Origin: Apostichopus japonicus
Taxonomy: Eukaryota; Echinodermata; Holothuroidea; Aspidochirotida; Stichopodidae
Assembly (NCBI RefSeq): GCF_037975245.1
Contig: NC_092576.1
Coordinates: 11,229,111-11,293,110 of the forward strand
Length of the DNA: 64,000 nt
Direction of reading: 5' to 3'
Shown here: in pieces, positions 1 through 57,085 of the stretch
Numbering within the stretch: the stretch's first letter is position 1
Layout of the letters: every line of letters begins with the position of its first letter
Notes under the pieces: model-generated
Seen by the model: the letters and a program-made list of their open reading frames with translations, nothing else
The model's database searches: none
Told to the model about the DNA's origin: nothing
Translations under genes and position numbers: made by a program

Positions 1-1937
1 AAAGGAAGCTCAGTTAAAAGTCATGGGAGAATAAACATTCGATTTTAAGAGCCATTCCCAATCCCACATGTGGCAAAGTGGGTCCTGATATGGTGAAATT
101 AGAGTTCAGAACTATTTCAGCACTTTACTAAGTTTTTTTTATTTTCAAAGACAAAGCATAAAGGGAAATTACTTTAATTTCTGTTGCACTTTTGTTGAGT
201 TTAAATCATTCTCAAGTTTTAAAATGTTTTTACAGACACACACCTTAAATATTTAGGGCAAGTCCAAGCACTGTCCCCTGTGAACCTAAGATTTCAAAAT
301 CCTTAAAATATTGAATCGTTGGACATTGGTATCCTTGTACAGGTAAAGAGTCTGAATTTTTTTCATCAATTGACCGCCATCCTTTAGCTTGTGACAAAAT
401 TTGCTTAAAGATTGTGAATTAATTTAATTATACTAATTAAATCTCATTTCCAATTGATGCTAAATGTCCCACACGTCACATTTTGTTTGTAGTAGGTGTT
501 GTTAAGTTTTGATAAGGATGTAATTGATATATTTATTTAAAGATATTATGTAAAGAACATCAATTGAAGGTTATCAATACAAATACAATTTGTTTTGCAA
601 TTATGATTTCATACTAATTCATAATTAATTTCAAAAATTGACGTACATGGTGACGTATGGGATCATATATATCGTCTCTTAATCCTTCTCTGCCTTTTGG
701 CTAAGATCATGTGTAGTATCTGTTCCCTTTAGAGGGATAGTTACGTCAAACATTAATTTTCATGGAAAACTTCCTTATATTTCAAAACTGTCCCATGCGT
801 CCCATGTCCGATATATACATCACAGTTTTTTTTTTTTTTATATATTTCATGAAATTTACGTAGCAAGAACTAAATAATGATTTTTTGTTGATACTGTGCC
901 AAATGATGGCATGATAGTGTTATTTAGCTAGAAATATGAGATTGGTTGGCTAATCTCTTCTTATTTTTTTTTTTTAAAGAGAAACATACAACGTTACGGG
1001 CAAAATATTCATTTTTTGTCCATTTATTGCACTAAAAACATGCACACCTTTAATCTCAATGATCCATAAATGCACTAAAGTAATTACATTGTGTTTCTTT
1101 ACACAAAACATTCTTATTTGACAAAAAAATTTAGACAAAAACATTACTTTCCAAGGCAAATATGCTTGTGGAAGAAATGTCCCATATTTCACATGTCTCA
1201 TACATCCTTTTTTTTATATTTCATAACAACTAATATTTTGTTGATACTGTGCCACATGATAGGTATGTATGTAGTATGTTCTGCTGCATATGTATTCAGA
1301 GAGGTTTTTTTGCACAATGTATTTTTTTCTTAATTTTAGCATCTTATCTGGTCCCATGTAAGTCAGTGTATATTAATAAGGATACTAACTCATTAATAAA
1401 AGTGGCAAAATTTTTATCTGCATACAATACAGTGTTACCTGTAACAATTACAAAAAGCAAAGAAGATTCATCAACTTTGTATTTCTTGTCATTGGGAGAA
1501 TCAATTAAAACCTCTGAAATGACCCATTACATCACAATACCAACACCGATGATCCCAAGGGGCGGGAGGGGGGGGTAAGGGTGGAGAGAACATGCATGTA
1601 GTGGGTCAGAATTTAGAATTTAGTCATTTGGAATACTTTTTAATAATAATAATAATAATAATTTTTGTCTTTGAGCTAATATTTTTTTCTATTGTTATAA
1701 AGTTGAGGCGAATGGGGGGGGGGGGGGGGGAGAGGAAAGGAGGGGGAGTGGATGGGGAAGATTAGTATCTGTTTTAGGCCAAAACTATGGAAGCCTTAGA
1801 TCTCATTATCTACTTGAATTAAAATTAAACAGGTTAAAGAAAATGCCTCCTAGCATATAAGGTGTAAATGATCATATTTTTTGCCCTTGTTCTACATCTT
1901 AAATTTGCAATCATTTCATTTGTTTTGTCTCTTACAG
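1..1937. other. RIPOR intron, 3' part
   Basis: AT-rich intron with poly(T) runs and no coding signal. About 780-930 and 1150-1260 share diverged text (tttgttgatactgtgccacatgat-type), suggesting an old local duplication. It also holds the U2-like fragment at 682-740 and a 17-base G run at 1714-1730. Confidence 0.5.
682..740 (+). pseudogene. U2 snRNA-like 5' domain fragment
   Basis: GCCTTTTGGCTAAGATCA followed by GTGTAGTATCTGTTC matches the 5' 45 nt of U2 snRNA, including the branch-point-pairing GTAGTA. After this the expected stem-loop IIa sequence is missing; a TCCCT-TTAG-AGGGA hairpin takes its place. No Sm site or later U2 domains follow. This is a U2-derived repeat head or truncated pseudogene, not a working U2 gene. 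Confidence 0.75.
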
Positions 1938-7900: not shown

Positions 7901-10900
7901 TTAGTGGTATTGATTCAGTCTTGAATGTGTCCTGCACATACTACACATACATACACATGTACTACATATGTACTGAATCTTGACTCTCGTACCCGTCCTC
8001 AAGACAATTTGAACAAACCATAGCCTACGCAAAGAACAATATCTTCCAAGTGCTGTAAGCTACAATGACTCTGTGTCTATGTACATGTCCCTAGATTGCT
8101 AATTCTGTTACCATGGTTACAGTAACCGCTTCAAAATTAGTATTTGTGTTTGTTCAAACGGTTACCGAAGGCAACCATGTGGGATCCCTTGGTAAACAGT
8201 ATAATATATATATATATATATGTACTGTAGTTATTGATCTCGTTGGATATATATGACTCCTTCAGTTGCTTATGCTGGTTCTGATGCTGGTATTATGTTT
8301 CTTCCAAGTTCCGACCCACTTTGGGGGAATTCAGCTGTCACAAGTGTCCAACTGGTATCATTCAATAACTAATAACAGATTTAATAGTATGCAACAGCTG
8401 CAATAATTGTAAAAAAGGGACCGATGTATGAAAAGGAAAGAAACTCAGGGGAAAAAAAAGAAAACAAAATGTGAAAAAGAAATTCTGGCCTAAATATTTC
8501 ATTTAACTACCTATGAATTTGAAAAATATTTTTAGAAAGGAGTTTAAAAAAGCTTAACAGAACGATAAAGGAAAAGAAGAGTTAAACATATGATGTAACT
8601 GGTAAAAGGTTTGATAATTTTAAAGCTTACTAGTTACAATACAAGTCGCCGCATCTTTGGATTTTTGACCCTTATTTTATTGTTCCTGGAGAGAGAGCTT
8701 GGTGGACAAAAGTAAGAGATTATGTCTTCATTACTGATAACTTTTTCTGTTTTGGTGGAGAATATAGTGTTGTTCATCCAACTCTAACCTTGTAGGAAAT
8801 TCCAAGACAGGAATGAAAGCTTTTAAGAGACATCATGATTGTCCCTCAAATGTTAGCATGTTAAGAATTCTTAAAAGATTAAAAAAAAAAAAGGGGGAAC
8901 TTTCTGATAGGATCTGACCTTTGAAGTTATCACCAGACATTGAGTCATGTTCAATAACACAATTAAAAGTCTCCTTCCGGAAGAATGTTCAGCTTCAGTG
9001 GCAGTCAAAAGCTTGTAGAAATGTTTTAGCATGATCAACTGACCATTATTGTACTTTCTAGCATATTTTGGGGTGGGGGTGTGGGGGGGGGTGACCATAC
9101 TCATGATAATTTAGATACTAGGATTATAACAAAATACAATGTTTTGGTGGAAGGCAGAGAGAAAGAATAACAACAGTAGATATGCTGGCTGGGTTTTTGT
9201 TCACTTCCTTAATAGATGTTTTCTTACTCTGGAGATAAATTAATTCCTGTTTGAACTGAAATAACCCCGCTGTGACAGGAAACACAGACTTCCCCTATGA
9301 TGTCACCAGATATCAAAGAGTCAAATAACTGGCTTTGATTTAAAGCAGCATTTTGCATCCTTTTCTATGATTTTTCTCAACCTCACTGACTCCACTATGC
9401 CATAACGACATACATAACTAGCTTATCTATTTAAATCTTACTTCAAATGGTGGCATAAAAGTCTAAAAATGTGCAACTTTCAACTTTGTTGTTCTCCAAG
9501 ATATTTTCTGTTGGGATCCCAATAAACATCGCCCATAATATGAATATTTAAACACTACAAACGTCATTGACCAATACGTAATACAACACCATGCTTGATT
9601 TGTGTATAGTCTATATGGCAGTTGTACCGGGGAGTTCCATAACAACTCCCTGGTTGTACCAATGCAAAGTCTTGGATCTATTTTTAGTAACAGCCCATAA
9701 CTAAACCTGCATCTCTGATTGGTTGAATTCAAACTAGTGGGTTTGGGGGAACTGTATGCGATTAATTTTAAATGTGGAATTTGTCATGGACACTTTACTC
9801 GCCAATTAACGTTTCTGGCAGGGAAAAAAACTTGGCTAATATCTTAGTTTGCTGTTTTGTGATTGATGTAAAACACTTGATGGACATGTCAAAAAAGTAG
9901 AAAACGGCGACCAAATGCAAAATGCTGCTTTAAAAGACTCATTCCAGAGGTTTCTGTCAATAATCTCTGTGTTAGAATGCTCCCTCCCCCTTTGAATCAA
10001 AATATTACCTTACTGTATATGAGACATTGGTCAAAAACATGGTTACATAAATTTGATTAACAACTTGATTTATTGTGTCTTCATGTTAGGTTACCTTTGT
10101 TTTTGTTTAACTGTTTCATTGTTTCTGTTTTTTTTTTTCTATGGGGGGGGGTGATTTAATTATCAATTAGGTCAAATGTGTTCGCAACAAAGTTGAACTT
10201 GATATAGAAATATATTGTTAGGTGCAAAGTGGTTTAAATAATTTTGACAAACTGTGTGAACTGCTCTCCTTGTTTTTCAATGAGTGGTTGTTGCAGAGGG
10301 TGGTAAAGGGAGGAGGGGGATGGGGGGCAAGGGGAGTCAGATTTTTCAAACAGATTTTAACATTGTTATGTGATTTCTTTACTTTAACTCCTGGCCCATT
10401 TCCAAGTTGATTGGATGAAAGTGAAATAGCTTCTAGAGGTGGTGAAGTTCATGATGTTTGTTTCCATTGTTTCAAACTAAGTAGACAAGAGGTGAAACTG
10501 TGATAGGTTTGATCAACTAACTGATTTGAACCATCCACACAATAACACAGTAACTTTAAGGTCATGTAGAAGGTTAGTGTTTTTGTTATTTGTTTATTAT
10601 TGTAAAGATAGAGAATTGAAACCCTACCTGAGTAGGAAACATGTTATGGTTACCATGTGATCTGGAGAGCAAATTGAAAAATAGAAGAAGAACCTTGTGT
10701 AGGTTTTCAGTCTAAGTCATGTTTCATTAGCATATAGTTATATTAGACATTGATAAGTGAAGATTGAGAATGAGGAAAGGGGTGGGGGAGGGTTGGGTGA
10801 GGGTTATTGCAAAGGGAGGGAAGAACTGGGTTTAATATATATATAAATAATTGAAAATCGTAATGAGTTGGAAAGTCAAGAACAGTGAAAAAACTTCCAG

Positions 10901-13900
10901 CCTCCACCGGGATTCGAACCCGGGCCTCCCGCTCTGTACGCGGACACCCTAACCACTAGGCTATGGACGCTGATTGTATGTCCAGAGGTTTGAAACCGGT
11001 AAGGAAGGACATAATTCCACTGTAGGCGTTTGTCACCTGTATCGAACAATACTAGTTCTGTTTTTGGTGACATATTTTGCCTTACTCTAGAGATCAAACC
11101 TGATGCTAACCAACACAAATATATACTGTATCAGTGCCTCTCCCTTTCCCTTGTGGCCTACTGAGTCATCACTACGGTGATATCCTGTTAGAAATCAAAA
11201 GTGAAAATACATTCTTGTAATTACAGCTGAACAAACAAATAACAGCTAAACAAACAAATAACTGTTGCATGTAAATGAATGTCTTCCCCTCCCACGTTAG
11301 TTTCTTATTTAGGAGGGGAGAGGGGGGTTGGGGGGGTCAACTGACATGGTTATATTATCTCATTTGCCATTTTATCTGTTCATCTCTTCTTTCCTTGCTT
11401 GGTTGTTTTCCTCACTTTAGGATGTAAACTTTGGCCTTTTGTAATTTAGCACTACTAATTACTTGTGCCAAGAACAGTTTTTTTTAAATTTTTTTTTAGC
11501 TGAATTGCAGGTAGTAAATGATGTGAGTCAGCTCTGTTTATTTAGTTATCGTTGATGTAAGGATGTTATTTAAGGAATCATCTCTTTGATGTAGAGTTCT
11601 TTTCTCATCCACTGTTTGTTTATTCTACATTCGTCTCACTCCCTGTTTTACCCCTTCCTTCCGTTCTGCTTCTTATTTTGCAGGAAGCTCGAGTTTCATT
11701 TAGCTAAAGTCGAGGAGCTCCAGGAACAGTATGACAAGGAACTGAAAGTTAGAGACGGTAAGGTCTTACTCATTTCTTCTGTCGGTGCCAAACGTTGACG
11801 TAAAAAGGTGTAAAGGGTAGACCAGCCGGGGGGGGGGGGGGGCTGGGGCTCGCTTTTCTGTAATTTTGTAGCTGTAGTGAATCTCTGTTTGAACCAGTGT
11901 GACGTGTTTCAAAGTGAAGCATTGAACAGTTAACCAGACTTAATGTAGGCTTCTGATATGAGCATGTTGACGTAAAAAGGTGTAAAGGGTAGAGCAACCA
12001 GGGGGGGGGGGATGGGGGGGTCGCTAGGGCTCGCTTTCTGTAGTTGTGTAGCTGCAGTAAATGTCTGTTTGAACCAGTGTGACGTGTTTCAAGTGAAGCA
12101 TTGAACACAGTTAACCAGACTTAATGTAGGCTTCTGATATGAGCTTGCACAGAGCATTAAGAGGAATAATTATAATATATATATATATAATTTTTAAATT
12201 ATTTAATTTTTTTTTTTTTTTTTTTAATTTATGATAATTTTTAATCAGGGAATAATTTAGTATTTAACTACAGTTAACTAAAGTAGCTTTGAATTCTGAT
12301 TTCTGTTGTCTCCTATAAACTAATATAGTTCCCATGTTAAAAAAGAAAGGGGGGGGGGGGGGAGGAAGCTGCCTTCTGATCAATTTTCATTATTGTTGCA
12401 ATTGCTGCCTGTTGTGGCACCAAACCTGCTTGAAAATAACTCAGGGATTTTCTAGAAAACGAGTATTTCATGACAGATATAACCTAAGATATGACCTTTA
12501 TCAGAATTAATATTTTTATTGTTTATTTTTTTCCATTTTTTACCCATTTTTCTAAGCGTCCGCCATATAGGTTACTGTACTTATTGTACCTGTACTGGTG
12601 TGATGTTGTTACTTGTGTACAAACTTATATGAGAAATAAATTTAAGTTGTCTGTGAATATTCTTACAGCTAACTATCCCCATTTTCTTGATCATATGCCA
12701 AAATCATCTCCTGAGCTCTCCTTGGGTGTGGTAGATTCGCTTTATTTGCAGACTTCCCCCTTAACAGCTCATAATGGCTTCTTGGTTAATATTCAGAGGA
12801 AGGCCAAAAAACATCAGAAATTTGTAAACTGTCTCCAACTTCCTGTAGCGTTAAAAACAATGATCATCCTTACAAAAGTTGTTTCATAAACTCTCTCCCT
12901 CGGTAGGTTGTTATTCTGCCCGTAAAGTCGGATAACGGGTAGTACTTCTGATGGATTAAACGTTAATTAGAACACAGATAGCTTCCTAGAGGATGTTTGA
13001 TGAGATATTTTGTTAAATTTTAATATCACTTTGTATCATCCCATTATACTGCAGAGAGAAAGCGACCACCTAAACAATCGGTCAGGGAGAAAAAGAAAAA
13101 GTAACGATATTCTTATTCCAAAATGTGAAAGCATTATTACGATATTAGTAGTACACCCATTTTCAGTGTTCAATTTTTTTTTTTTTCAGGTGCTGAGAAC
13201 ATTTTACGGGCCTTCTCGGAAGCCAATTCTTCCAAGGCCAAGGGTTCAGTGAGTGAAGCGAAGCAACAGGTCAAAGACTGTACGCAAAATATGTGTCATT
13301 TAGAGGCGGAGCTTGAGGTTAATCTGGGGGTGTTTATAATGAAGATAGAAGGTGATGATTATTGATGCATTTGATGTTTACTATATACACCCAGTTGGAT
13401 TTTTTTTTTTGTGTAGCAGGTACTTGCAAGTTACCATTCTGTGTAGAAAGAGTCAAGTTTGAGCTTCTAGATGACAATAAACATACACAGGTGCATGGCT
13501 TATATGCTTAGTAATTACAACAATATGAATATCAATACTCTCATTTGTAAAAGGAACAGTCATATATTGTTAGTACCTCTACTCCTCTAGGTATATCTTT
13601 GTGATTAAAATGGCCTGTTGAATATTCATATTAACAAAAGTGTGTACAGATTAAGTAGAATCAGTGTGTCTGTGTAGTTTCATTGTGTTTATCAGGCATG
13701 AGCTTTTTCCGCGAATTCGCGGAATATCTGTGATTTCTTTTCTACCACGGGGACAAAAATTATTATCCTAACACACTGTAGCATACGCAAACTGGAGCCT
13801 ATATCGCAATTTTTGCAAAATTCTGTGAGTTTTTGTTTACCCATGCAGGCTCATCCTTGGTTTATGAGGGTGCTTGTTGTCTAAGTTTGTATTGCTTGCT

Positions 13901-23500: not shown

Positions 23501-26500
23501 CACTACGCAAGGAACACTTCTTCTTGGTATTCCATTTTGCTCTGTAACAACAGAAACTGTTGCATTTATCATAATGCTTAGAACTTTAATTCTTGCCTTC
23601 TTTTTATGTTCAAGCAGTTAAAGGCATTGAAGACTCGCCCCAAACTGTGTGCCGCCCTCTGAAAAAGTTAACTTTCCGTTGCTTGCAAGTGAAGTTTTCT
23701 GCTTGTCGCTACAAAATGCAAACAGTAATGAAACATGATACCTTGTTATCTTTAGCTGAACCTGAGATGTCCATTGCTGTATCGTTTGTACACTGTGCTG
23801 TGGGTATTGACCCCAGCTGTACGTACTGACTGTACACTAGTGTCTAATTACCGAAGGTAGCAAGCTGTGTGCGTATTTTATGGGATCGATGGTGGTGTCT
23901 AACACTTCTGTTACACCTCATTGGAAACTAGGTCAGATTACCGGCATTAGACGTTTCTTTTTGCGCGAGTCTTCACACCCTTTAAATGAACCCTGTGCAG
24001 TATAACCTGCCCCTGTGTAGACTTTTGACAGAACAGAAAACTACTTATGTGACATTGTTTTTATATAATACCTTTTGTTTACTATCCTGTTCTTCATTTA
24101 CCTCCCATTGCAGTACTACCAGAGTTGAAGCTAAACCCAACACTTTTGGAGTTTTGGCAACAATGTTCAGAGAAGCACGCCCTCTATGTGAGCGCAGACT
24201 TATTCCTTCTGCAGCTGGACGTAAAGTTTGGAGTGAAATTACGCACGAACCACCCCGATATAGCAGACGATGGTAGGGAACAAAATAATAAAAAAAAAAA
24301 AATTAAAAGAATGTTGTGATCATTTGGACACATGACTTTTGGGGGGGGTGTGGAGTGGGGGTGGAGGGGGGGCAGACAGCGAAACAGCTTTCAGGTTGCT
24401 TAGATCATAACTTTGCTACACGGTCATTGCTTCACTGGTTTGAACTCTGTCCTCACCAAAGTGTACTTTGCTAGTTGTAAAAAACCAGAAAGTCACACCA
24501 GAAGAGAGTGATCCTAAGGTAAACACTGGTTCGTAGTTGAACATATTTTAGTGATAATTTTGACCCGAAGTTTGGAACCATTGAGAGTATGTAGTCTACC
24601 GTTTAATGGGATTTAGATGTGTTTATCCAATATCCAGTTTAACACAGATCTTGGTATAGTGCAGGGCTTTAATCCTCTCAAATGCACTTTGTTCTCAAAT
24701 TCTATTCAAAGACTAAAAACTTGGCTTTTTGCTCTATTGGTAATTAAAGTAAGAGCAATGTATCCATAATGGCTCTACATTATGTATTTTAGTTAATTAT
24801 AAACAGTTGATGCTATTGTTTTAGTCTGTAAGATATCAGATTTCCTCATTTATGGAAGTCTTGTTTTGTTTTGTCCTCTCGTAAGCAGCAAAAATTCATT
24901 CCATTTATATCGGTCATTGAGCTCAGTCTAAGCTGTAGTAGAACAATATTAATATTATTCAACCGTTTATGGACTTCAGGCTACCTACTGTACAATGCAG
25001 TGGTTTTAACCAAGAGTTTGTTAATAGTAAGAAACTAAAAGACTTTAATCGCGGTATCACTTTCACACATGTAAACATATTGTTTACTATTTCACTTCTG
25101 CTGTCGGTTAAATTCACAGGAATTGGTTAATAAATTTTGTCCACGTTTGATTTTGTAGTTTTCCAGAGTCTCGGACACCGAATTATAGAGCGACCGATTG
25201 ATCTGCTGGACCCCAAGGCAATAATAACACTCTTCCAGTACATAACCTTCTTTGCTCATGAAGATCGCAAGAATCCAGAGAGATTTATCAACGACCTCAC
25301 CAACGAATGTAAGTGAAATGTTTTGACATCCTCACGTCTCCAGGACTTTTATTCTCTTCTCCCCTTGGACACTGTACGATTAGATCTTGTTTTAGATTTC
25401 CAACAAAGAAGTGGTTCTAAAGAGATTACCACCAACTACAAACCCTGGGTAGCTCAGTTAGAAGTTGTGACCATGATGTCACTGGATCAAACCTCTCAAA
25501 TTCCTCTGCACATTGATTTTCCTGCCATTGAGTCAGGAAGGAGTTAACTTTTGAAAAGCTTCAAATTACATCGCTAGGCTGGATTGTAGTGTTTCATCCA
25601 GCATTTACGCTGAGGACGATATTGTATTTCTGCACCATACCGTCCCTGGTTTTACATGTCAATCATACTTGGGACACTATTGTTATCCCTTTATACTCAC
25701 CAGAATTATAATTGGGACACTATTTTTAGCCTTTATACTCTGCAGTATCATACTTGGGACACTATTGTTATCCCTTTATGCTCAGTAGTATCATACTTGG
25801 GACACTATTGTTATCCCTTTATACTCACCAGAATTATAATTGGGACACTATTTTTAGCCTTTATACTCTGCAGTATCATACTTGGGACACTATTGTTATC
25901 CCTTTATGCTCAGTTGTATCATACTTGGGACACTATTGTTATCCCTTTATACTCAGCAGTATCATACTTGGGACACTATTGTTATCCTCTATACTCAGTA
26001 GTTTAACAAGGAGCTTTGTACAGGTTTTATTTTCAGGTTTTGCATATTTCACTTATTCATCTGCCATATTTAAAGAAGTAATTTTTCCAAAAAAGAAAAA
26101 AAAAGGGAGAAGAATAAGAAGACATTACCCTCACCTCACCACCATAATTTCTTTAGTTGTTTTATTTTCTGATTTTGCTTCTAAATTTTATCCAAATTTT
26201 TATCAACTCAGTGATTCCTGTCTTTCTTGAACTTCATTTCAAATTGATTTTGTTCCTTCAGTTGAGCTCACTGCCAGCCTTGAGCCAGGAGACGTAGACT
26301 TGCCAAAGATAGTGAAGAAGCTGCCGAGAGGTGTGTTGCTTCCGACGGGTAACCTGAGGGCGCTGGGCCTGTTACTGTTGGAGGAGTCGGATACCATCAA
26401 GAACGGTGTCAGGAGTTACTTAGAATCAATATGTAACAACCCAAAAACAAGGCAAAAGGTAAATTGGTGTAGTGGTTGATGAAGTCTTGGTCAATAGGTG

Positions 26501-30485: not shown

Positions 30486-33477
30486 ACACTCACTACCAGT
30501 CTGGCTGTTGGTAACATGTTACTGCAGCCTTAGATTTGATCAAAATGCATTGTCAAGAATTGTTGCCCATTTTGCTCGGAGGTATTGTAATAATAGAGAA
30601 TAAATTATTCTTTGAAGTCGTCGTGTTATAATTTGTGTCCAAAGTGTCAGGTAAACGATGTGTCAAACGAGCTGCATTTTTATTTTTATCATTTTTGAAA
30701 GGCTTTAAATCTAATTATGCAAGAATTTTTACGAGCTGGGCTCATACTGTAGCAAAACCTATTTGTAAAACGTTCGTTGTAATTGTATCGTTTTTCTTGT
30801 ACATGATGTGATATAATAAATACACATAGACTTATTAAAAGCAAACTCTACATGTTTTGCAATGATGAACTCGTATTAGATGATATTCCAGTATGTTTCA
30901 CGGTGTGTGTGTTGTAAATGTTATCCTCTTCTTGTAAATTCAGCCTGAATTAAAATGTTAATAAGGAACAGAAATAGACTCTACGATGATATAATTAACT
31001 TCACCAGGAATTAATCATTAAATTCCTGTGAGATTTATTTTAATTAGTAATTAGGCTAGGCTCAATAACCACTTGATATTTCAATGTGTTGCTGTTGACT
31101 GTAAAATAACAATAATAATAGAATGTGTATTAACAACTGTTGCCTGCCAAGTTTTAGTCTTAAAACAAATATGATTTCAAAAGTATTTCAAAAAATGTTG
31201 TCATAGGATACTAGATAAAAACGATAAGGACAAGTTTTCTCAGAAAACGGGTGAATTTGAAGACAAATTTTGTCATAAGATCTGACCAAAAGTGGATGTT
31301 GCCAGGTGACTATTATATCAGGACAGAAAAACCTGAAGTCTACTGTGATGAACAATAATATAAAATAAGATGGCTTTTCAGTTTATAAAGCTTAAGAAAG
31401 ATTTGTTTATTTAATCATGAATGTTTCACAGGGTATTATTGAAACCAAATTGTGACCTTTTGCAGATTGGCTTCACCTTCCAATGGGTATCAAGAAATTG
31501 TTCGTTGAATGTTCTTATATTAATGGTGGCATTATTTTCTGCACTCTATTTTTGTATGATGTTAAAGTAGCCAAATCGGGAATAATTTGTGATATTGCAT
31601 AGCAAAATGGCTGCATCACAAAATTCCAAATGTGATCATATGAAGCTGGGGGGGGGGGATGGTAGGATCACTGGTGCAATGTCTTGTCCTCCTAGTTCAG
31701 TTTAAATATGAAAGCTTATTATGAAAAAATAATAAATAACAAGTTAGCAAAAACAGAAATTATACAAATTTCAAGTATGTTTGTGTGACTCGAGAGGGAA
31801 AACTTGAGTAGCAAGGAAGATTGACTAATAGCCTTAAAAGCTAGTTAACTTCAAAGAGTAATTTCTGTATCTATATTTACAGGGGGTTTGGGGGGGGGGC
31901 AGATCCAGGATTTTGAAAATGAGGGGTTATGACTTTCATGTAGTGGGATATTGGAGTCATGCCTCAGAGAAAATTTCAGATGTGAAAAGGTGCAATGTGA
32001 GGCATATCATGTAGGCTATCAATAAGGTCTTTAATTAGGTTTATGCTCAAGGTTATGTTAATAACTACTTTCACTTCTTTGTGTGGGGTTGGAATCTTAC
32101 AACCCCCTCCCCTGCCCCCATTTGCCTCCCCCTGCCCCCATTTGATACGCACCTGAACTTACTCAGGAATCGATTTCAGCTTTGATATAAATCTTAAATT
32201 GTCGATGTGTATGCAGCAATTTTCTTTACATTGCTGGAAAATTTGAGGGTTAAAATCATACTTTTACTCTCTGTGTCGTTTTGTTGCATTTTTCCGGTCA
32301 TGTAAAACAATCTATGATTCAAGGTTTAATAATTCCATTAACTGAACAACTAATCAGGAGAAATTAAGTTATGAACACTTTATGGTGTTTTTGTTCTTTT
32401 TTGTTCATATGGAAGAGTATATAAATGAAGAAATAAAAGGCATAAAAGTAGTTTATTAGGATGGATTGGGAAGAAGAAACAATTCCAGAGTTTACAGAGG
32501 GCAGTCTGAGGAGAAATAATAAGAAACTTATTGTCTTAATTAATAGGAACAATTAAAACTAAGAGGATTGAGCCAAGTCTAGCCCTTGATATTCTTATGT
32601 CACCTAGCTAGCCATGTTTGCACTTTCCTCAAGTATATCATGAAAAGGAGAATGCAGTTCTTTATCCCGTATTTTTGTGGACCACTTCATTGACTCAAGG
32701 CCTGTATCCCGCACCCCTTTCACACCCCCCCCCCCTCGTCGGGGGCGAGCGGGGATGGTGTGTGTGGAAGTAGACCTATTGTGTTATATTTATTACGATA
32801 TGAGCCTTTTTGCTTCGTTCTTTATTTTTGTACCCTATACACATCACATGCCTTATCTTATTTTCATATAGGACGTTTCGATATCAGAGGTGAGGCAGTC
32901 GTTTACGAGACAGGACGGCCGTATCCTATACTGTACAACGTCTCTGAGCTTTAACTCGTTTTTATTCAATTTATCTCGGCTTTCTTATCAAAACAATGTG
33001 TAAAGTTGTGTTTTTCTCCTTTTTTTTTTAGTTTGTAAAGAATTATGAAAGTTTAATGTACAGAAAAAGATTAAGATTCGTCTATTAACCCACAGAACTA
33101 AGGTGCTTTTAAATGTAAGCTAAGTCATTACATGTCAATAAAATCCAAGTGATTACATGTTTAAAACTTGACATCTTTCTCTAAGTTTTTTTATTTCTTC
33201 CATCCCTTTGCCCGGGTCGAGGTATTTTATATACAGCAATACCCAACAGAAACAAACTTTGGCCTTTGTTTAGTTCATTCAGAGTACTCAGATGTCATAA
33301 AATCTGAAGCTCTTTGGAATTATCAGCATATGATTCCCCCCCCCCTCCCAACCCACTCTTCCCAACCCACTCTTCCCAACCCACTCTTCCAAATTTGGCC
33401 AGTGGTATGTAATAGCGTGGACACCACAAAGAGACCCAAAATTGCTAGTTATTCTGTAATGGTTGCAGTGGATTTAT

Positions 33478-34890
33478 AACCTCGGACATCAGTATTACAA
33501 ACCCTGTGCTCTGCCCACTGATATCAGTATTACAAACCCTGGGCTCAGCCCACTGATATCAGTATTACAAACCCTGTGCTCTGCCCACTGATATCAGTAT
33601 TACAAACCCTGGGCTCAGCCCACTGATATCAGTATTACAAACCCTGGGCTCAGCCCACTGATATCAGTATTACAAACCCTGGGCTCTGCCCACTGATATC
33701 AGTATTACAAACCCTGTGCTCTGCCCACTGATATCAGTATTACAAACCCTGTGCTCTGCCCACTGATATCAGTATTACAAACCCTGGGCTCAGCCCACTG
33801 ATATCAGTATAACAAGCCCTGGGCTCTGCCCACTGATATCAGTATTACAAACCCTGTGCTCTGCCCACTGATATCAGTATTACAAACCCTGGGCTCAGCC
33901 CACTGATATCAGTATTACAAACCCTGTGCTCTGCCCACTGATATCAGTATTACAAACCCTGTGCTCTGCCCACTGATATCAGTATTACAAACCCTGGGCT
34001 CAGCCCACTGATATCAGTATAACAAGCCCTGGGCTCTGCCCACTGATATCAGTATTACAAACCCTGGGCTCAGCCCACTGATATCAGTATTACAAACCCT
34101 GGGCTCAGCCCACTGATATCAGTATTACAAACCCTGTGCTCTGCCCACTGATATCAGTATTACAAACCCTGTGCTCTGCCCACTGATATCAGTATTACAA
34201 ACCCTGGGCTCAGCCCACTGATATCAGTATAACAAGCCCTGGGCTCTGCCCACTGATATCAGTATTACAAACCCTGGGCTCAGCCCACTGATATCAGTAT
34301 TACAAACCCTGGGCTCAGCCCACTGATATCAGTATTACAAACCCTGGGCTCAGCCCACTGATATCAGTATCACAAACCCTGGGCTCAGCCCACTGATATC
34401 AGTATCACAAACCCTGGGCTCTGCCCACTGATATCAGTATTACAAACCATGGCCTCTGTCCACTGATATCAGTATACCAAACCCTGGGCTCTGTCCACTG
34501 ATATCAGTATCACAAACCCTGGGCTCTGCCCACTGATATCAGTATAACAAGCCCTGGGCTCAGCCCACTGATATCAGTATCACAAACCCTGGGCTCTGCC
34601 CACTGATATCAGTATTACAAACCATGGCCTCTGTCCACTGATATCAGTATACCAAACCCTGGGCTCTGTCCACTGATATCAGTATCACAAACCCTGTGCT
34701 CTGCCCACTGATATCAGTATTACAAACCCCGGGCTCTGCCCACTGATATCAGTATACCAAACCCTGGGCTCTGTCCACTGACATCAGTATTACAAACCCT
34801 GGGCTCTGCCCACTGATATTAGTATTATAAACCCTGGACTCTGCCTACTGATATCAGTATAACAAATCCTGGGCCCTGCCCTACTGAGCC
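33478..34890. repeat. 35-bp satellite, about 40 copies, with a 210-bp higher-order repeat
   Basis: The unit is cccactgatatcagtat followed by tacaaaccctgggctctg (one period 35 bp, e.g. 33551 to 33586). It contains the palindrome CTGATATCAG. The variant aacaagccctgggctctg recurs at 33811, 34021 and 34231, 210 bp apart (six units), and again at 34546. On the minus strand each unit reads GATATCAGTGGGCAGAGCCC, like a tRNA A box/D arm. The flanks extend the tRNA-like reading in both directions (see findings). Confidence 0.95.
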
Positions 34891-35724
34891 ATCCAGTCCC
34901 TAATTGATGGTGAACGAATCATCAGGGCTGGGTTTCAAGAGAAAGTCGCACACACAAAAGAAGAAGAGACATCGTTTTATTTGCTTTTCTTGTATTAAAA
35001 TTCTTTTGTCAAGTGATATATTAACAGGAGTGTTTTAATAAATTGCTGTCTAAAATTTGTAATCACCACTGAAAATTATAACAGGTTGGAGGGGGCAAAC
35101 CAATACACCTGTAAACATAACCCTACTTCAACAGCAGAAACTTTAAATAAATTGAAGCAAATCGGAGTCTCGTCAGGAAGCTGGCAAAATTCCTCCCATG
35201 CAGGACAACCATGACCACCTCTCCCCTCCTCCCCCCTCATTTCCCCGACAAACCATGCCTATAAACCCTGTGCAATTCACCTTTAAAATAATCAGCACCA
35301 ACAGCATGGGAGAAATGAGCAAAAGTGTGCCCCGTGGTTAATCTTAATTCCTGACTACCTCTTCTGTTACCCTACCAATTCTCATCTTTGCAGAGAAGAT
35401 AAAAAGTTTGGAGCTATTACAAAGTAAAATATACAAAAACAGCGCATGCAGAGATGGCACCATCCCAACTTAAACTGCTTCCAATGAAGAAATATATACA
35501 ACTTAATCTATATCATCTTACATAATATATACAAATGTATTATGCAATGTTTGAAAATGCATAGGTGCTGGGGAAGGATGCAAAATTGGTGACTGGGTGA
35601 ACTACATTTTGGCATTTTGACAGGCTGGATCCTGTCTGTGTTTACAACATTTGCATCAATTTCCTAGTACTTACTCAAACACATGCTGGACCAGATGATT
35701 ATCAAAATGCATTAAGCCTATTGC

Positions 35725-43500: not shown

Positions 43501-46500
43501 TCAATGTCAGTGTTGCAATCAACTTTTAAAAACTGCATTGATGATTCTGGTCTCCTTTGACATAACTTTATTACACTTCCCATCTGATTGATGATTCTCG
43601 TCCCCTTTGACGCAACTATATTACACTTCCTAAACTATTTTACACTTCCCATAACTATATTACACTTCTCATAACTATATTACACTTCCCATAACTATAT
43701 TACACTTCTCATAACTATATTACGCTTCCCATAACTATATTACACTTCCTAAACTATTTTACACTTCCCATAACTATATTACACTTCTCATAACTATATT
43801 ACACTTCCCATAACTATATTACACTTCCCATCTGATTAGCTCATCCATTCACATCATTGTGGGCACGCTCATTGTGTGGCTGGCCTTATAAATATATATC
43901 ATCTGCACAACCTTCTTGTTGGTTTTTCAAATTGTAGTGTCCCAAAAGTTGTACAGCACCGAACAATCTTCTACGAAAGACAATAGCCCACAGGACCCAC
44001 CATCTCGAGGGGTTGATGGTGAGTAACTCTGCCTTGTGACATATTTATTTTTGCCTCTCTCTTTTTTTCATTTAAAGAGCTGGGAATTAAACACCTCAAT
44101 TTTTATTCAACCCAGAAAGCCACATGTATTTCAAGACAAGTTTGTTATGTGATATAGACATACAATCAGCGTCCATAGCCTAGTCGGTTAGGGTGCCCGC
44201 ATATGAAGCGGGAGGCCCCGGTTCGAATCCCGGTAGAGACAGGAATTTGTTCACTGATCTGGATTTTCCAAGGTTAAATTATTCCCTGATTAATTTGATC
44301 AAATTACATGTTTAACGATCTTATAATTACTGCATTGTTTTTCCACCAGCTGTATGCCAAACAGCCATTACTCTGCCTGTCAACTTTGACTTGATAGCAT
44401 TGCTAGGTAAGCAGTTTTTCTTTCTTCTTTTGGCTTTTATCAGTTATTTTCATCTTAAGCTGCCATTTTTTTATGAATTTTTTCTTTGAACCATGAATGG
44501 TAAAAGGCTGTTGGTTTCTAAAATCATCCAGACCACTTTAACAACATACATGAAAAAGAGGTTCGGTAATACATGACCTATTTTTGAGCACCCATATGGA
44601 CTAAATCAGCAACTTATTTGGTCTATGCAAATTCCAATTTTAGATGCCTATGCAAATTCCAATTTTAGATGCCTGCATTATGTATAATAGGACATCTCAC
44701 AAATCTTGCTTGATTTAGCATGAAATGACCCAACTGTAAAGTCTGTTGCCTTAGTGTCTCAATTTATAATTACAGAATTACAGTTGTTCTCTGCATTATT
44801 TTTAAGTTTTGTTTCATCTGGAGGTGTCATTCAGATGTTTCTTTTGTATCAAACTGAGGAGGTGAAAATAAATGAAGTTTATGGTAACCCTACAATTTGA
44901 CTATCTATCCTTACAATGTGTAGCAATAGTGACATATATAGCAATCCTTACCTCCTGAAATTCTTACTTTCTCCAGTTTCCATCATTGCAATATGAAAAA
45001 TTGAACCATGTTGTCTTCTCAAATTTTCACTTCTCTTTAAAATTTGTAAGAAATTGAACCAGCTTTTTCTTTGATTTCTTTGCATGTTAAGTATGTATCC
45101 CCTTGTAATTCTTATTCTATTACCAAAGTTTACTAGTAAAGTCATCAGAAGAAACTCATTAATGTGGCGCCTTGTTTTATCAGTGAATACGGGGAAACAA
45201 TTTTCTGTCAAACTTTAATATGAAGTTACATGACTGCGTGTCATCAATTTGAAACTTTTTCAGACTTGAGTGATATCTCTTAATCAGGTGATATCACAGA
45301 CAATCACCACCATGTCATTCAAACTGGGTCTTATATTGGAAAACACCAGTCTTATGTTCTAGTTGGAATTGTTATCCCCCTCTCTCCCTGGTGATTTTAA
45401 TACCTACAGACGATAAATGCAAACTCTACTCTGAGCCAGAGGAAGACCCGAACATTCTGTCCACGTCGCTGAGAAGGAAACTATTTTCTCACAGCGATAA
45501 CAGCCACTTCCTCTCCACCCCTGGTGCCGGTGGTAGCCTACTCAGAAACGGTACCCCTGCCTCTAACCAAGGTCTACCTTCCCCTCACCTCTCCCCTGTG
45601 GAAAAGGACGAGGATTGCCATGGAGAATCGTCGAAACCAAAAACACCAAACTCTGGTGGGGTAAGTAAAACACAAAATAATTTGCCATGCAAGTGCTTTT
45701 TTTTTTTTTTTTTTTTTTCACAGGAAAACATAGCACTTTAATAAGAGATAAAGTTCACAGCCTTGAAAGCTGCTTCGGTACTCGAATATATGAATACTAA
45801 ATTAGTCCCTATACTAGTACTCCAGACAATTTGGAGATCTAACCATATATACATCTAACTATAGTGCTGAGAGCTTTGTACTCATGAATACCAAGATGAT
45901 TGTCAAGTTTGTACTCAATCTGTTGTACTCATACATCAAAGTCTAGTAGTAACCATAAACATAACTATATACGCAGATCCTGTCTATGAGATCTGATGTA
46001 ACAGAAGTTCATTTGTGGTTGATTGTACTTCAATTTGTGTTTGAGTAACATCAACAGGGATTGTCACATTGAAATGTTCAATCTTGTGTTGTCGTTATAA
46101 TAGTTCAGGAAAATGTATATATGGATGAATGAATTATGTTATTTTTATTTAAACTTTATTTTAAGAGGGAAGCTCGTTTAGCAATAGCTAATCTTCCACG
46201 AGGCCCTCTAATAAGACATATAATAATATAAAATGTATGAAAATTTAAGAAAAAACAATGAAAATAAATGAAAGGAAGATGAATAAATGAATGGATAAAT
46301 TACTACAATGATAGCAGACTTTTTCTGTTGTCCTTCTATTCAAGTTGTTTTCATCTCTTCTCAACTTACAGAGCCAGTTTTCTTCTAGTCCTCTTGTACG
46401 GCTGCATGGACCCAGAGTCTGTACTCCATTCACCCCTAGAGGTCCTTCTCCTCTCACTAAAAACCTTGGCACGCCTCTTCTTTCGCCGATTTGTAAGGAT

Positions 46501-56390: not shown

Positions 56391-57085
56391 TAGAAAAAAG
56401 GGATCAGGAGGGACACTCAAGTCCCCATCAAGGACCCTATAGGAGAGAGAAAGACACAAACCCTCAGACCCGATTACAATGCAAAAAGTGCTTGTCCAAA
56501 GCATTCTTAAACCCATTGAAATTACTTGCAAGTACAACTTTCGCAGGCAAACGGTTCCACTCATTCACAACCCTATTAGAAAAAAAGTTATGCCGAATAT
56601 TAATCCTACTTTGTGACTTTTGGAGTTTAAGACAATGACCTCTGGTACAACTACTATTAGCAAACATGAAAAAGTCGGTAAAGGATAAATTGTCAAAACC
56701 ATACACTATCTTGAAAACCTGAATCAATTCCCCACGTAACCTCCTAAGCTCCAGTGTGGTGAGATTCAACAATTGTAACCGCCTATAATAAGGAACACTC
56801 TTTAAGGAACTAATCATTCTAGTAGCTCTCCTCTGGACCTTTTCAAGTACTTCCTTATCCTTAACAAAATATGGGTTCCAAGCCTGCACAGCATATTTCA
56901 GATGAGGCCTAATCAACTGCTATATAAAGCCTAACTACGATGTCCTCTTTCAGAAAACTGAAGTTCCTCTTGATCACTTAAACCCTATTACCTCTTTTAG
57001 CAGCTTCAAGACAATGTTTAGAAGGTTGCAGAGATGAGTCAATGTAGATACCTAGGTCTCTTTCAACAGAGACCTCCTGTTATGT
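56391..57085 (-). pseudogene. Broken LINE reverse transcriptase, C-terminal part
   Basis: The frame 56464-56916 encodes MIRPHLKYAVQAWNPYF, VLEKVQRRATRMI, LRRLRGELIQVFKI and NRVVNEWNRLP, hallmarks of the region after the catalytic domain in CR1/Rex-type LINEs. Upstream on the minus strand, LGIYIDSSLQPSKHCLEAA continues it with at least two frame breaks. The catalytic motif is absent. Dead copy. Confidence 0.85.

Follow-up and report, generated by a model that had tools for sequence, protein, structure and literature searches.

A 35-bp minisatellite probably born within the tRNA-like head of a short interspersed element in Apostichopus japonicus

Tandem repeats derived from short interspersed elements (SINEs) are known from squamate reptiles as SINE-derived satellites (Vassetzky et al. 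2023; PMC10702118). The array described here lies in a 64,000-nucleotide stretch of DNA of the echinoderm Apostichopus japonicus (C16:11229111–11293110, hereafter the window) and consists of 40 units of 35 base pairs (bp). It is a case of this known kind, SINE-derived satellites and minisatellites, now in an echinoderm and together with its parent family and sister arrays. The probability that the array was amplified within a copy of a SINE headed by a transfer RNA (tRNA) sequence, from a segment of that head, is put at about 0.88.

As in the squamate satellites, the tandem units correspond to part of a tRNA-headed SINE and the end unit runs into the rest of the element (at the right end here, at both ends in a sister array on contig C20). 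Independent variants within one genome and alternating subvariants are also common to both. Unlike the squamate units, which are 67 to 215 nucleotides (nt) long (PMC10702118), the unit here has only 35 bp and comes from the head alone; moreover four loci were found, the window array is far from a contig end and the host is an echinoderm. The restriction of SINE-derived satellites to squamates is uncertain according to the authors (PMC10702118).

Minisatellites derived from Alu and B1 elements have been published for human and mouse (PMC9659126, PMC3389668), and 300 of 7276 human tandem repeats derived from transposable elements are flanked by short direct repeats (PMC3389668). The window array resembles these in that it appears to be a local minisatellite that arose from a single copy of a SINE, with short direct repeats as one proposed seed. 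Alu is 7SL-derived, whereas the head here is tRNA-like, and unlike the Alu minisatellites the same head recurs in four or more arrays, and in one of these both sides can be read. Amphibian OAX/satellite I, Hy/polIII, Rana/polIII and PolIII/TAN are also tandem repeats with a tRNA-related part (PMC10702118, PMC9659126). Those of their units for which lengths are stated have about 200 nt or more, and their link to a SINE is considered inconclusive (PMC10702118). Unlike the case of these amphibian families, the parent family is found here in the same genome. No SINE-derived array in an echinoderm was found in the literature searched (titles and beginnings of abstracts of open-licence papers).

The array and its flanks

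The array is about 1.4 kb long, and its units lie head-to-tail with the phase kept throughout (Table 1). Tandem Repeats Finder places it at 33488–34887 with a period of 35, 40.0 copies, 93% matches and 0% indels; the array of about 40 copies in the preliminary description is real, and the minus-strand letters quoted there are correct. Cut in one phase, the units fall into 14 distinct types, and their divergence is greater toward the right edge. The six-unit higher-order repeat reported earlier is also present. Its first and second blocks differ at 2 bases, the second and third at 0 and the first and third at 2. Units six positions apart are identical in 11 of 33 pairs, a value matched at any lag from 2 to 10 in 62 of 5000 shuffled unit orders.

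The genome searched comprises 671,581,487 bases in 35 contigs. At up to three mismatches the 35-bp unit pattern has 38 matches, all within the array (reversed control 0); two of the 40 units exceed three mismatches and hence are not among the 38. Further arrays of this unit, for which the preliminary description had suggested a search, were thus not found at this threshold. The array was previously termed a satellite, but minisatellite is the better term for an array of this size at a single locus; satellites in the strict sense form long arrays at many loci, and the present unit occupies one 1.4-kb locus at up to three mismatches.

The flanks of the array are still readable as the two sides of a SINE head. 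The leader at the right end was absent from the first search motif. Its similarity to nine SINE leaders is attained by 0 of 5000 shuffles and by 4 of 5000 35-mers from the window, a set which may include the second SINE copy of the window itself. A SINE profile built from seven copies matches the locus, when this is collapsed to a single unit, with 49.3 bits (E = 4.6e-14) over profile positions 4 to 74. By comparison, 21 of 500 shuffled collapsed loci match the profile and the best of these reaches 9.1 bits, and ten other arrays of the window, collapsed as controls, give zero matches. The right flank together with the edge unit (34913–34850) matches with E = 9.9e-10. A match at the left end (33521–33477, E = 2.4e-9) is mostly unit sequence, and the profile also matches single array units. 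The homology of the 5′ side of the locus to the SINE, as judged from these alignments, is firm and extends beyond the tRNA motif. The 3′ side is weak by comparison, though it is likely to be the tail or B-box side of the element.

The preliminary description placed an A box beyond the right end. This holds, since the perfect box TGGCTCAGTAGG is equalled by only 6 of 2000 shuffles of the 80-nt flank. When the flanks are joined with any one of the 40 units, the best cloverleaf always falls at the same register across both flanks, with 4 of 7 pairs in the acceptor stem, 2–4 of 4 in the D stem, 3–4 of 5 in the anticodon stem and 2 of 5 in the T stem. Copies elsewhere that join both flanks with one unit, as proposed earlier, do occur. 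The distance from the TC of the D loop to the TC of the T arm is 35 bases in four of nine copies, the collapsed C20 array being counted among these four; three copies have 34 bases and two have neither distance.

Table 1. Features of the window array, of a second SINE copy in the window and of the sister arrays
Feature	Position	Strand	Remarks
Tandem array	33487–34887	-	40 units x 35 bp; unit apparently D loop to variable loop of the tRNA-like SINE head
Edge unit, SINE 5′ side (right end)	34852–34887	-	36 bp, one base extra; with 34888–34891 forms the sole complete A box
Three successive 210-bp (6-unit) higher-order blocks	33698–34327	-	33698–33907, 33908–34117, 34118–34327
Two successive 175-bp (5-unit) blocks	34398–34747	-	5 differences per 175 bp
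A box TGGCTCAGTAGG	34880–34891	-	12/12 against the canonical box
SINE 5′ leader and acceptor-stem side	34892–34913	-	homologous to copies elsewhere, from profile position 4 onward
T arm / degenerate B box GGTTATAAATCC	33470–33486	-	in register after last unit; weakly supported
Second decayed copy of the same SINE	25424–25492	+	E 8.7e-8; 10-base deletion in head
C20 array	C20:19957369–19958318		period 54 bp; both ends read
C5 array	C5:21700010–21700873		period 29 bp from match spacing; 87-bp steps present
C17 array	C17:14939364–14940939		period 29 bp from match spacing

Parent family and sister arrays

A 23-nt D-arm pattern taken from flank and unit has eight matches in the genome, all outside the array and all with three mismatches (reversed control 0). 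These places were fetched with 200 nt each. Two of them, L078 and L079, are identical, and L079 was dropped from the profile and from the leader, tail and register tests. The copies are decayed and display the order leader, A box, anticodon arm, T arm; most have a common leader, and the flanks of the array align with them. L083 and L084 are apparently poor members of the set, while the best copy, L080, has 7, 4, 3 and 2 pairs in the cloverleaf register. The C20 copy retains TAGCTCAGTTGG and GGTTCAAATCC. ARAGORN calls a tRNA in 0 of the 8 copies, several of which are poor.

A 26-mer of leader and D arm has 431 genome matches at up to three mismatches (reversed control 0). Among 100 matches listed, 31 are in three arrays (17 on C20, 9 on C5 and 5 on C17) and 69 are elsewhere; such pattern counts are lower bounds for repeats. 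With one copy as query, BLAST gives at least 56 matches including the query itself (40 of 188 candidates scored), and the dispersed matches have 75%–83% identity and are on many contigs. From its many copies and tRNA-like head, the repeat family is thus classed as a dispersed tRNA-headed SINE with old copies, which presumably spread by retroposition. SINEs are given as 0.02% of the genome in the A. japonicus genome paper (PMC10344927).

At least four arrays share the head of this SINE, with three periods, 29, 35 and 54 bp. The C20 copy appears in BLAST as a ladder of matches at 54-bp steps. Its ends (500 bases read) show the 5′ side running into the leader, then the 54-bp units, and the 3′ side running into GGTTCAAATCC / CACTGGTTCAAATCC and then into the acceptor strand. 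Junction patterns of the three periods were searched in the whole genome. The 54-bp junction is found at 16 places on C20 and at one on C18 (control 0), the 29-bp junction at 15 places, all on C5 and C17 (control 0), and the 35-bp junction at 37 places in the window array and at 5 others that are scattered (control 4). The 35-bp junction is also matched four times, each with one mismatch, at C2:30575926–31080900, in steps of about 130–190 kb; these matches are perhaps a large unrelated repeat or chance.

The window array is located about 11.26 Mb into a 46.0-Mb contig, far from the contig end. The C20 array is at about 19.96 of 35.5 Mb, the C17 array at about 14.9 of 37.2 Mb and the C5 array at about 21.7 of 24.5 Mb. 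Judged by distance to contig ends, the subtelomeric preference that is typical of the squamate satellites, though not defining for them, is not seen here.

Alternative origins and the seed of the array

Several results weigh against an origin of the array in a SINE head. Rfam models including RF00005 give zero tRNA matches at E up to 10 in positions 33200–35200 or in two short flanks, and ARAGORN finds no tRNA in the joined flanks, where both joins are off by one base. When the locus is collapsed, its cloverleaf is marginal against dinucleotide shuffles, of which 40, 154 and 50 in 2000 do as well with units 0, 5 and 39, respectively. Local alignment of the 3′ part with the SINE tails, L083 being left out of these, is at chance level, with 1610 of 5000 shuffles as good. 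Identity of 8-mers at a spacing of 35 bases does not rise above that at the best other spacing in any of nine copies. Whole-genome BLAST with each flank finds this locus only, therefore this SINE copy would be very diverged; a search with a 28-mer of the right flank also gives only the self match. The B box that the preliminary description placed beyond the left end is likewise at chance when read without gaps, the best match being 7/11 and attained by 1614 of 2000 shuffles. The candidate GGTTATAAATCC requires a one-base gap, and when stretches of 101 nt are drawn at random from the window, 91 of 600 have an equal score. At the register dictated by the array end, the resemblance of GGTTATAAATCC to a T-arm consensus, built from the SINE copies in this analysis, is less often attained by chance: by 54 of 20000 random 18-mers and, if only those beginning with TC are counted, by 104 of 7100.

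The missing tRNA-model matches and the chance-level B box would both be accounted for by an ordinary minisatellite in unique DNA, whose tRNA likeness arose by chance from a palindrome-rich unit (ACTGATATCAGT, GGGC..GCCC). Adjoining units meet in a perfect palindrome of 12 bp, with an arm length attained by 18 of 500 shuffled units, and minisatellites are common, with 12 arrays of at least four copies in the whole window compared with 5 in 90 kb sampled elsewhere. The box and cloverleaf tests leave such a chance likeness open. However, it is rejected on the leader and profile tests, where the flank matches a SINE leader that is outside of the tRNA motif and the profile score of the collapsed locus far exceeds that of the shuffles and of the control arrays; it is therefore considered very improbable. 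An array grown in a decayed tRNA gene or tRNA pseudogene would also display an A box followed by D arm and anticodon arm, and the SINE profile does match loci of a tRNA cluster on contig C3, at up to 33.8 bits. Yet among the matches listed the alignment of these loci begins at profile position 21 or later and does not take in the leader, whereas the array locus matches from position 4, and its leader is common to dispersed copies on many contigs, so that this origin too has only a slight chance of being correct.

The preliminary description suggested that each unit may keep an A box for RNA polymerase III (Pol III). A further explanation is that the array retains Pol III activity, with many A boxes recruiting TFIIIC or yielding small RNAs. 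The edge unit does have one intact A box, and some of the C20 units read retain TAGCTCAGTAGG. However, the box is full in the edge unit alone; of the other units 34 keep 9 of its 12 positions and 5 keep 8, and a good B box is not found in the left flank. Retained Pol III activity is considered very improbable, and the suggestion of a box in each unit is not upheld. The array most likely has no function of its own; it is explicable without one and none is indicated. The proposal in the preliminary description that the array was born inside a SINE from its A-box and D-arm segment is supported by the copies that join both flanks with one unit, by the leader, by the profile score and by the three further arrays.

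For an origin within the SINE head the following course is proposed. An old tRNA-derived SINE copy would have been present at the locus in minus-strand orientation, its homology beginning near 34913. The head stretch from the D loop through the anticodon arm to the variable loop would have been duplicated in tandem, possibly with short direct repeats in the head as seed. Slippage or unequal exchange may then have raised the number to 40 copies, and blocks of six and of five units would have been amplified later. Slippage or unequal exchange at short direct repeats is the best guess for the duplication and corresponds to the model of Haber and Louis, as cited in PMC3389668. Both strands of two joined units fold as DNA better than all of 200 shuffles. 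This would be expected of a unit prone to slippage but is no proof.

In the C20 copy the D loop contains TCAGT and, 35 bases away, the T arm contains TCACT. This copy also has AGGGCT in the leader and again in the anticodon stem, 29 bases apart, which fits the 29-bp arrays, and the 54-bp junction passes by eye through a common ACT. At spacing 29 the identity of 8-mers in this copy is 7/8 (AGGGCTGG/AGGGCTTG) and this is the top spacing there; L081 also has 7/8 at spacing 29, but elsewhere in the copy. At spacing 35 the identity is 6/8 at best, in the C20 copy and, at another place, in the copy near 25 kb of the window. The direct-repeat seed model is thus weak for the 35-bp period. All these seeds are short and were picked with the periods already in view, so that the seed step is an inference. 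It is conceivable, though doubtful, that the SINE head is a recurrent minisatellite nursery, in which short direct repeats built into leader, D loop, anticodon stem and T arm would fix the possible periods (29, 35 and 54 bp) beforehand, and independent copies on different chromosomes would give rise to arrays of predictable unit length. SINE heads are not shown to be hotspots, because at 5 arrays per 90 kb a few arrays would be expected anyway (rough arithmetic).

Genomic setting and significance

Plus-strand frames in the window match FAM65/PL48 (13–17 kb) and BORA (40.9 kb), and the array is between them. By eye, the array follows a frame whose stop is near 32951, and AATAAA occurs near 33137. 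A 14-bp tandem repeat of 3.2 copies is at 33346–33390, about 100 bp from the left end of the array. The region 18537–43831 has ten tandem arrays of at least five copies in 25 kb; their units are unrelated by eye and five have period 20.

Two well preserved tRNA-like heads with a near-identical start, GCGTCCATAGCCTAGT, are at 10899–10970 (minus strand) and 44169–44241 (plus strand) and score above the Rfam tRNA cut-off. They may belong to another SINE family, younger than the first, whose copies are called as tRNAs. Kinship of the array with these elements is not favored, as their heads differ by eye from the array flank. With 63 of 55204 candidates scored, 61 tRNA matches were obtained, and 57 of these lie in a dense cluster on contig C3 (17760905–17776764) that has members on both strands; the few members inspected are Lys-TTT by eye. 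Positions 681–774 (plus strand) match the Rfam U2 spliceosomal RNA with 52.9 bits over 94 bases, the model having 192 positions; this may be a U2 pseudogene or a repeat derived from U2. An open frame at 56467–56919 (minus strand) resembles by eye the end of a reverse transcriptase of a long interspersed element, and has no Pfam match at E up to 1.

The locus would present the birth of a satellite at a stage that is still readable, with parent family, duplicated segment, array and block amplification in one genome. The stages can be read at two loci in the letters and at two more by match spacing. An echinoderm case would also answer the question of the squamate authors, namely that SINE-derived satellites exist elsewhere (PMC10702118). 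With hundreds of matches to the head, 69 of 100 listed being outside arrays, it can be asked which features of a SINE copy lead to amplification.

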